Shown: one piece after another, positions 34,808 to 45,855 of the stretch
Position numbering within the stretch: position 1 is the stretch's first letter
How the letters are laid out: each line of letters starts with the position of its first letter
Assembly: GCA_029884425.1 (NCBI GenBank)
Contig: JAOUHV010000019.1
Span: 1 to 45,958 of the forward strand
DNA: 45,958 nucleotides
Origin: Gammaproteobacteria bacterium
Lineage (GTDB): Bacteria > Pseudomonadota > Gammaproteobacteria > S012-40
Direction: 5' to 3'
Notes under the pieces: generated by a model
Told to the model about the DNA's origin: nothing
What the model saw: only the letters and a program-made list of their open reading frames with translations
Databases searched by the model: none
Made by a program: the position numbers and the translations under genes

Positions 34808-34999
34808 ATGTCCCTCCTGGGTTATCCAAACTTCTCACCAAGCGTCAACGACGACCTCGCCGCCGATCTTTTTCAATAATAAATTGCTTTAAAAATACTT
34901 ATCATATAAATCTATTACTACTGTTTGTACAATCAATTTGTTCCACGATGTTGAATATCCGCCTTTGAACGAGCTTTTTGCTGGTTCTGGCCCCAACCG
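34808..34999. promoter_or_regulatory. Divergent AT-rich promoter region glgC/glgB
   Basis: The 192-bp gap between glgC (minus) and glgB (plus) has a very AT-rich core near 34875-34940. TATGAT-like and TATAAA-like -10 candidates occur on both strands, but I cannot pin one promoter. No operator is evident. Confidence 0.4.
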
Positions 35000-40818: not shown

Positions 40819-42171
40819 ATGCTAGACACACTGACAGAATTGACCGGAGCACTTTCAGGACTGCTCTGGGGGAACGCCCTGACCTTTATCCTGCTGCTGG
40901 GCGTCGGCTTCTATCTCACCTTCAAACTCGGCTTTGTGCAGATCCGCGGTTTTATGCACAGTACGCGAATTTTGTCCGGCAAATACACCCATCCCGATGA
41001 GGTCGGCGAGGTGTCGCACTTTCAGGCACTGTCCACCGCCCTGTCTGCCACCGTAGGCACCGGCAACATCGCCGGCGTCGCCACCGCCATCGCACTGGGT
41101 GGTCCCGGTGCACTGTTCTGGATGTGGGTGACCGCCTTTATAGGTATGGCGACCAAGTTCACCGAGTGCACCCTGGCACTGAAATTCCGCAAAGTGAATC
41201 CAGACGGCAGCGTCTCCGGCGGACCGATGTACACCTTGCTGCACGGTCTGAAAATGAAACGCATGGCGATATTGTTCGCCAGCTTTACCCTGATCGCCTC
41301 ATTCGGCATCGGCAACATGGTGCAGGCCAACTCGGTTGTCGACGGATTGGGCTTTATTTGGCCAGAACTGCGTCAGGACGGCTGGATCGTGGGCGTCATC
41401 ATGGCTCTATTGGTTGGTCTGGTCATCATCGGCGGCGTAAAGCGCATCGCCAGTTTTGCCTCGACAATTGTGCCGTTCATGGCGATTTTTTATCTGGTTG
41501 CGGCTTTGTTTGTGCTATTTAACTACCTGCCACAAATCCCCTCGGCACTGTTCACCATTCTAAATCTGGCGCTTAATCCCTGGGCGGCGGGTGCGGCAGC
41601 GATCGGTGAAGCCATTCGCTGGGGTGTGGCACGCGGTTTGTTCTCCAACGAAGCCGGCCTGGGTTCATCCCCCATGGCGCACGCAGCGGCCAAAACCAAC
41701 GAACCGGTACGCGAAGGTCTGGTAGCCATGCTCGAGCCCTTCATCGACACCATCGTAATCTGTACCCTGACCGGTCTGGTGATTGTGGTGACCGGCGCCT
41801 ACCTGACCAAACCCGAAGAAGCCATGGGCGCGTCACTTACCGCTTACGCCTTCAGCCTGAGCATGGGCAACGCCGGCGCCTGGGTGGTCGGTCTGGGTCT
41901 GGTGCTGTTTGCCTTTTCCACCATTGTCTCCTGGTCATACTACGGCGACCGTGCAGCGCAATTTTTGTTCGGCGATAAAGCCGTTCTGCCCTACCGTCTG
42001 GTGTTCACCATGCTGGTAGTGGTCGGTGCCGCCGTGCCGCTGAATCTGGTGTGGAACATGGCCGACGTTGCCAACATTCTCATGGCGCTGCCCAACTTGC
42101 TGGCGCTGATTCTGCTAGCCGGTCTGGCGAAGACATTGAAGGACGATTACTTCCATCGCCACAAGGACTAA
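40819..42171 (+). CDS. Sodium:alanine/glycine symporter family protein (AGCS)
   Basis: Inner-membrane amino acid:cation symporter (AlsT/DagA family). The 450-residue protein has about 10-11 hydrophobic segments. It carries the family motifs GTGNIAGVATAIALGGPGALFWMW, RGLFSNEAGLGSSPMAHAAAKT and a C-terminal SWSYYGDRAAQFLFG segment. I use the ATG at 40819; the frame extends back to a TTG at 40798. It probably imports alanine or glycine with Na+ (family knowledge). It is a single gene with no metabolic neighbours to refine the substrate. Confidence 0.93.
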   Translation: MLDTLTELTGALSGLLWGNALTFILLLGVGFYLTFKLGFVQIRGFMHSTRILSGKYTHPDEVGEVSHFQALSTALSATVGTGNIAGVATAIALGGPGALFWMWVTAFIGMATKFTECTLALKFRKVNPDGSVSGGPMYTLLHGLKMKRMAILFASFTLIASFGIGNMVQANSVVDGLGFIWPELRQDGWIVGVIMALLVGLVIIGGVKRIASFASTIVPFMAIFYLVAALFVLFNYLPQIPSALFTILNLALNPWAAGAAAIGEAIRWGVARGLFSNEAGLGSSPMAHAAAKTNEPVREGLVAMLEPFIDTIVICTLTGLVIVVTGAYLTKPEEAMGASLTAYAFSLSMGNAGAWVVGLGLVLFAFSTIVSWSYYGDRAAQFLFGDKAVLPYRLVFTMLVVVGAAVPLNLVWNMADVANILMALPNLLALILLAGLAKTLKDDYFHRHKD

Positions 42172-42259
42172 TCGCCGGTCGCGCCCGCTCCCCGTGGTCG
42201 AATATCGCCCAGGGTGCGGGCGACCGACCATCGCTCGTAGCCAGCAAAATCTGACGTGA

Positions 42260-42281
42260 TATACTGTATTTTTAAACAGCC
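42260..42281 (+). promoter_or_regulatory. LexA (SOS) box overlapping the recG promoter
   Basis: TACTGTATTTTTAAACAGCC (42262-42281) has CTGT-N8-ACAG, the core of the gammaproteobacterial LexA box, and matches TACTGTAT of the consensus exactly at its left side. A TATACT -10 candidate (42260-42265) overlaps it. The recG ATG is 13 bp downstream. Binding is inferred. Confidence 0.6.
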
Positions 42282-42293
42282 ACCGTCACGTCG

Positions 42294-44411
<2,118 letters not shown>

Positions 44412-44425
44412 CCAACGGTATTTCT

Positions 44426-44977
44426 ATGTTCTCCACCCATCGCGAGCCCATTTGGTCTGATGCACGCGGCTGGCATTTACGCCATTGCCCAGCGACGCTG
44501 CACTCCTGGCTCACCGACCGACACTCGCTCACCAAGCGTTTGCAGCAAGCCTGCGATGGTCAATTTCGTGTTCAGGTGGTAAAGCAGTTTTGGGGCAGAC
44601 CACTGCAAAGCGAACGCGAACAACTGGCGCTTTCCGATCACGAATTCTGTTTCATCCGCCATGTGCAACTGCGCTGTTTTGATCAACCGTGGGTGTTTGC
44701 CCGCACAGTGATTCCGCACACCACGCTGCGCGGACCACTGCGCTCACTCACCCGTCTGGGCAGCAAACCGCTGGGCGCAGTGCTGTTTGCCAACCCCGCC
44801 ATCCAGCGTGAGAATCTGCAAATCGCGCGTCTGAGTCGCGGCCAAGGCATGTATAATGCCGCCACGTCGGGGCAAACAAACGACCTCGACATCTGGGGGC
44901 GTCGGTCGCGTTTTCGTTTTCACCACCACGCTCTGTTGGTCAGCGAAATTTTTTTACCTGCACACCAGGCATATTGA
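44426..44977 (+). CDS. ubiC: Chorismate lyase UbiC
   Basis: Converts chorismate to 4-hydroxybenzoate and pyruvate, the first step of ubiquinone synthesis. The 183-residue protein shows the UbiC pattern ([79 protein letters not shown]). Length fits the family (E. coli 165). Its stop overlaps the ubiA start by one base, so the pair is translationally coupled. Assignment is firm through sequence plus ubiA next door. Confidence 0.94.
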
Positions 44978-45855
44978 TGCACAGCACCACTCTGACAACC
45001 CGCCAGCGACTGCGCGAATACGCTTTGTTGATGCGCATGGACAAACCCATTGGCACGCTGTTACTGCTCTGGCCCACGTTATGGGGATTGTGGCTGGCCG
45101 CCGATGGCATGCCCGACTGGCATGTGTTGCTGGTATTTGTGCTGGGCGTATTTTTGATGCGCTCTGCCGGCTGCGCCATTAACGATTTTGCCGATCGCAA
45201 CATTGACGGTCGCGTGCAACGCACCCAACAGCGACCACTCGCCGCCAATCGCATTTCCGCCAAAGAAGCCGTTTTGCTTGCTGCCAGTCTGGCGCTGGTC
45301 GCCTTTGCGCTGGTGCTAACCATGAACAGTTTCACCATTATGTTGTCGTTTGTCGCGGTAACGCTGGCAGCCACCTATCCTTTCATGAAACGCTATACGC
45401 ATTTACCGCAGGTTTATTTGGGCGCGGCCTTCGCTTGGGCGATACCCATGAGCTTTGCCGCACAAACTGGCGAGATTCCGTCCTTGGCTTGGTGGCTGTT
45501 TATCATCACCATTCTCTGGACCACGGCCTACGACACCATGTACGCCATGGTTGATCGCGATGATGATTTGAAAATTGGCGTGAAATCCACCGCCATTTTG
45601 TTTGGCCAGGCGGACATCGCCATCATCGCCGCGCTGCAAGGGCTGGTACTGGGCGGTTTTATACTGATAGGACTATCGCAGTCCCTGGGGCTGTTTTACT
45701 ATGCCGGCATTCTGCTCGCCGCCGGTCTGGCCATGTATCAATTGTGGCTGATTCGCAACCGGCAGCGTGACTGCTGTTTTCGCGCATTTTTGAATAACAA
45801 TTGGCTGGGCGCCGCCGTGTTTGCGGGAATTTTCCTCGACACACTCACTCGATAA
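44977..45855 (+). CDS. ubiA: 4-hydroxybenzoate octaprenyltransferase UbiA
   Basis: Membrane prenyltransferase that attaches the polyprenyl chain to 4-hydroxybenzoate in ubiquinone synthesis. The 292-residue protein has about eight hydrophobic segments and two Asp-rich motifs: ND-x-x-D-x-x-x-D (Asn69, Asp70, Asp73, Asp77, in [14 protein letters not shown]) and [17 protein letters not shown]. The start MDKPIG motif after residue 20 matches the family. The ATG at 44977 overlaps the ubiC TGA; a TTG lies directly before it. Confidence 0.96.

Follow-up and report, generated by a model that had tools for sequence, protein, structure and literature searches.

SOS control of recG has been described for several gammaproteobacteria. 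Passages of one study (PMC3323433) report that LexA of Vibrio parahaemolyticus gel-shifts the recG promoter, place the recG gene of Escherichia coli outside LexA control and mention predicted LexA sites at some alphaproteobacterial recG genes. For Vibrio cholerae, excerpts of PMC5963079 enter recG (VC2711) with 4.1 in the RNA-seq table of the mitomycin C SOS regulon. The same excerpts state that V. cholerae LexA did not shift several candidate DNAs resembling LexA boxes, and a sequence match is thus not proof of binding. Sections of work on Shewanella piezotolerans WP3 (PMC4471891) report that mutation of lexA raises the expression of recG, among other genes, at both temperatures, a likeness drawn via expression data only. 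Furthermore, evidence of recG regulation through a different motif is given for several Bacteroidetes in parts of PMC8565304, repression of recG after damage is noted for Acinetobacter baylyi, an organism without LexA, in parts of PMC3978071, and an oxyR-recG operon is indicated for Pseudomonas aeruginosa by the title of a reference cited in PMC1250226. RecG remodels stalled replication forks, and a constant supply of the helicase, as in E. coli, versus an on-demand supply, as in Vibrio, alters the balance of fork repair.

The window analyzed here, i.e., the whole stretch of 45,958 nucleotides, carries recG (42294..44411, plus strand) encoding an ATP-dependent DNA helicase of 705 amino acids with the Pfam domains RecG_wedge, DEAD, Helicase_C and RecG_dom3_C. 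The deduced product exceeds the cut-offs of the NCBIfam RecG models and matches the solved RecG 9wm0 with an E-value of 1.8e-259. It represents the same helicase as in E. coli (approximately 59% identical), where, however, recG is not regulated by LexA. Downstream, ubiC (44426..44977, plus strand) was assigned to chorismate lyase based on Pfam Chor_lyase (2.5e-32, over the Pfam cut-off), whereas the match to the NCBIfam chorismate lyase model is below the cut-off of that model. It is followed by ubiA (44974..45855, plus strand), encoding 4-hydroxybenzoate octaprenyltransferase (TIGR01474, over the cut-off). As in the Vibrionaceae, where recG is treated as an SOS gene, a LexA box is located on the recG promoter. 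The locus differs from the Vibrionaceae in its order and neighborhood, with a symporter gene preceding recG and ubiC-ubiA following it, and in being predicted from sequence alone; it also differs from P. aeruginosa, in which the gammaproteobacterial recG gene is, by the title cited above, part of an operon with oxyR. A LexA box at recG accordingly represents a known arrangement, as exemplified by Vibrio, and the present locus is a credible new case of it rather than a new kind of system. No paper naming LexA control of recG-ubiCA in its title or in the abstract shown was found.

At positions 42260-42281 the window reads TATACTGTATTTTTAAACAGCC, identical to the reading in the initial annotation, which had placed CTGT-N8-ACAG over a TATACT hexamer before recG. 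The 20-bp LexA box TACTGTATTTTTAAACAGCC (42262..42281, plus strand) comprises the core CTGT-N8-ACAG at 42264-42279, the sole exact match to this motif in the whole window, and an outer flank CC that is non-consensus. Twelve bases lie between the end of the box at 42281 and the recG ATG at 42294. The left half of the box shares bases with a predicted extended -10 element, TG-A-TATACT (42257..42265, plus strand), identified as a consensus match, in which the hexamer occupies 42260-42265 and the TG lies one base 5' of it. A weak -35 element, TAGCCA (42238-42243, plus strand), was found by consensus scanning and is separated from the -10 hexamer by a 16-nt spacer. In total, the predicted promoter matches the consensus at 9 of 12 positions, with TG before the second hexamer, and is to be read as a consensus match only, since approximately 0.8 such sites are expected in shuffles of the scanned region (42100-44500). 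The box at recG thus extends across the predicted extended -10 element and the presumed start of transcription, where LexA operators typically act in repression. The recG reading frame opens only 18 nt before the ATG at 42294, with a TAA stop inside the box; an earlier alternative start was therefore ruled out, leaving this ATG as the only usable one. A clear Shine-Dalgarno sequence is not visible in the sequence before it.

The genome encodes a LexA protein that exceeds the TIGR00498 cut-off and can be aligned with E. coli LexA over the full length. Its recognition helix FRSANAAEEHLRALARKG differs in two residues from the E. coli helix FRSPNAAEEHLKALARKG, and the protein possesses the Ala-Gly, Ser and Lys motifs of E. 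coli LexA, which we take to serve self-cleavage. Moreover, boxes were found upstream of further genes of this genome: two tandem boxes precede lexA, and one box lies 153 bp upstream of the family match of recA. Two boxes with centers 18 bp apart (G000:C41:5275-5308, locus L056) belong to an imuA-like gene, named from its sequence, the product of which contains a RecA-like stretch, and two with centers 24 bp apart (G000:C77:4300-4339, locus L062) to a YebG-like gene, whose match to NCBIfam YebG (E-value 5.8e-08) is below the cut-off. Based on the canonical LexA and the boxes at lexA, recA, imuA and yebG, LexA of this organism very probably recognizes the motif.

For scoring, a native matrix was built from 27 boxes, namely those preceding lexA and recA, taken from this genome and from relatives, together with the imuA and yebG boxes of this genome; recG was excluded. 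The recG site reached 22.9 bits, which is within the range of 15.0–29.4 bits obtained for the 27 training boxes by leave-one-out scoring. A matrix of E. coli boxes gave 21.9 bits and a matrix of the seven own-genome boxes alone 21.2 bits. Within the same genome, the native matrix assigned 20.2 and 8.7 bits to the lexA boxes, 17.8 bits to that of recA, 20.4 and 20.8 bits to those of imuA and 24.4 and 24.5 bits to those of yebG; hence, of these seven boxes, only the two at yebG score above the recG box. It is the top-scoring LexA-matrix site of the window, followed by TACTGTTTGTACAATCAATT at 34919-34938 with 15.1 bits, a LexA-like site of a strength expected approximately 2.8 times per genome by chance.

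Sites with the recG score are expected 0.020 times per 2.9-Mb genome at 58% GC, 0.10 times at 50% GC and 0.45 times at 40% GC, and a first-order Markov simulation yielded one such site in 40 Mb. The GC content amounts to 54.6% for the window and 53.2% for positions 42200-42293. Concerning the looser pattern CTGTATN4ATACAG with up to two mismatches, 79 places were counted in the genome versus 35 for the control, and the recG site belongs to the ten that deviate by no more than one mismatch. The bare CTGT-N8-ACAG motif was dropped as significant evidence, since it occurred in 43 of 100 dinucleotide-shuffled versions of the window and at 36 places genome-wide versus 28 for the reversed control; the weight rests on the full 20-bp score.

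By sequence, the LexA box is well supported, given its score, its overlap with the -10 element and a genome that encodes a matching LexA. We consider it likely, and with good confidence, that the site is a real, working operator through which LexA represses recG and from which DNA damage relieves it. A sizeable induction of recG by damage is also regarded as likely, at a slightly lower level of confidence. In the proposed mechanism, LexA bound to 42262-42281 would cover the -10 element along with the presumed transcription start and keep the expression of recG low, probably together with that of ubiC and ubiA, which follow at close spacing. DNA damage would lead to RecA filaments and LexA self-cleavage, by which the recG promoter would be freed; more RecG would then be available for the remodeling of stalled forks. 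Binding, repression and induction, as well as co-transcription of ubiC and ubiA, are what we infer from the arrangement of the locus.

Among the other readings, LexA might bind the site with negligible induction of recG, either because a single box represses a strong extended -10 promoter only weakly or because recG is mainly transcribed from another promoter, by read-through from the symporter gene. The single box at recG, compared to two each at lexA, imuA and yebG, would fit this reading. The sodium:alanine symporter gene is encoded on the same strand and ends 122 bp upstream of recG, and no T-run terminator-like site was found between the two genes. However, the intergenic region contains a strong G+C-rich hairpin without a T run (42175..42231, plus strand), identified by folding versus shuffles: region 42168-42240 folds with -35.8 kcal/mol (z -3.3), and 2 of 200 shuffles were equally stable. 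Moreover, the box is placed directly on the TATACT site, the sole promoter-like site found by the consensus scan of 42100-44500. We regard negligible induction as unlikely. The hairpin was not among the terminator-like sites of the scan; it is located just 3' of the symporter gene and may terminate the transcript arriving from there or protect it.

Regarding the genes downstream of recG, co-control of ubiC-ubiA by LexA is plausible. The distance between recG and ubiC is 14 nt, the start of ubiA overlaps the end of ubiC, and no terminator-like site was found between recG and ubiC in the scan of 42100-44500; together, these features suggest that both genes would follow recG. If the box also drives ubiC-ubiA, quinone synthesis would be tied to DNA damage.

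In order to place the site among related genomes, regions upstream of recG were screened in the family and the class, with distances measured from where the protein match begins, a point that does not coincide with the gene start in every case. The family comprises 13 genomes from 10 genera, and the genus itself is represented by the source genome alone. The DNA upstream of recG was readable in 10 other family genomes, none of which has a recG box of at least 12 bits, the best score being 6.5 bits; these 10 include L017, with 161 bp of upstream DNA only, and L143, with a broken recG start. A lexA box is present in six of these 10 relatives (G002, G003, G004, G005, G007 and G008), which thus use the motif, though not at recG. 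In the same family, no LexA match at an E-value of 1e-30 or better was obtained for G001 and G006, each of which is at least 94% complete; RecG of G001 is the closest to the source RecG within the family (65%).

At class level, 187 genomes had a match, of which the listed G172, G182, G049, G042, G165, G186 and G069 were left out; loci L028 and L029, which lack upstream DNA, were excluded from the family and class recG counts. Among the matches listed, none of the 154 other class genomes carries a recG box of at least 15 bits and two (L219 and L285) carry one of at least 12 bits. Likewise, no box of at least 12 bits was detected at recG in 80 named loci, mostly of Pseudomonas. The sensitivity of the scan can be gauged from canonical lexA genes, for which 15 of 19 upstream regions reached at least 12 bits with the E. 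coli matrix. Within the family and class sample, the recG box is private to this lineage and not conserved in the family relatives. The initial annotation's reading of the site as a LexA box gains from the 22.9 bits obtained with a lineage-built matrix. Of the two observations that it had named as refuting this reading, a lack of conservation in relatives and a lack of induction by damage, the first applies to all 10 family genomes.

The gene upstream of recG also differs in the relatives: a symporter homologue was found at none of 136 other recG loci, and the recG promoter of this lineage therefore has a new 5' neighborhood. UbiC homologues are present at 36 and UbiA homologues at 32 of these 136 loci, some of them at least 1 kb away. 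In view of the differing upstream gene, non-conservation of the box points to a lineage-specific gain and not to a lack of function, and since regulons differ between species, conservation of a site in relatives is not strictly required for membership in the LexA regulon. The box probably arose as a lineage-specific, independent gain. That it is instead a chance look-alike, i.e., an A+T-rich promoter matching CTGT-N8-ACAG by coincidence and free of LexA control, would fit its absence from all readable family relatives, the frequency of the bare motif in shuffles and its count in the genome versus the control, the contribution of the -10 hexamer TATACT to the left half-site and an expectation that climbs to approximately 0.45 per genome in AT-rich promoter-like sequence, but appears quite improbable given that the 20-bp score is expected 0.02–0.1 times per genome at 50–58% GC, and fewer times within promoters, and that the gene behind the site serves DNA repair and has LexA boxes at its promoter in other gammaproteobacteria. 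Simple chance as the sole reading of the recG box was dropped on the expectation for the 20-bp score.

As a positive control, a second order was screened, namely that of G150, a genome whose upstream DNA resembles that upstream of recG in Photobacterium. The scan covered 50 of the 55 genomes with a match, the weakest five (G262, G214, G255, G240 and G231) being left out. A recG box of at least 12 bits was found in 15 of the 50 genomes, representing 7 of 23 families (loci L325, L327-L329, L332-L334, L337, L338, L340, L343, L345, L346, L350 and L352), and nine of the 50 have a box of at least 15 bits. These boxes are located 33–93 bp before the recG protein match; among control windows of 510 bp, 1 of 240 reached 12 bits. 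A LexA box at recG is thus a common feature within part of this second order. SOS control of recG, which had been put forward as a notable difference, would set the locus apart from E. coli, where the gene is not LexA-regulated, but is less exceptional in a wider frame, being already published for V. parahaemolyticus, V. cholerae and Shewanella and accompanied by the boxes before recG in the second order (15 of 50 genomes).

The distribution of the boxes suggests that recG repeatedly joins or leaves the SOS regulon in the gammaproteobacteria. The seemingly repeated entry of recG into this regulon in separate lineages is the most interesting aspect of the locus and would provide a useful case for regulon rewiring. 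A more far-reaching scenario, which we put forward tentatively and hold to be possible rather than probable, is that the whole recG-ubiC-ubiA unit came under LexA control once the recG promoter had acquired its new neighbor, that DNA damage raises fork remodeling together with the first two steps of ubiquinone synthesis, and that recG was recruited to the SOS response independently in more than one gammaproteobacterial order. In one family of the second order, loci L353, L354 and L357 carry degenerate boxes of 9.6–10.6 bits at nearly the same position, which could be decaying or diverged.
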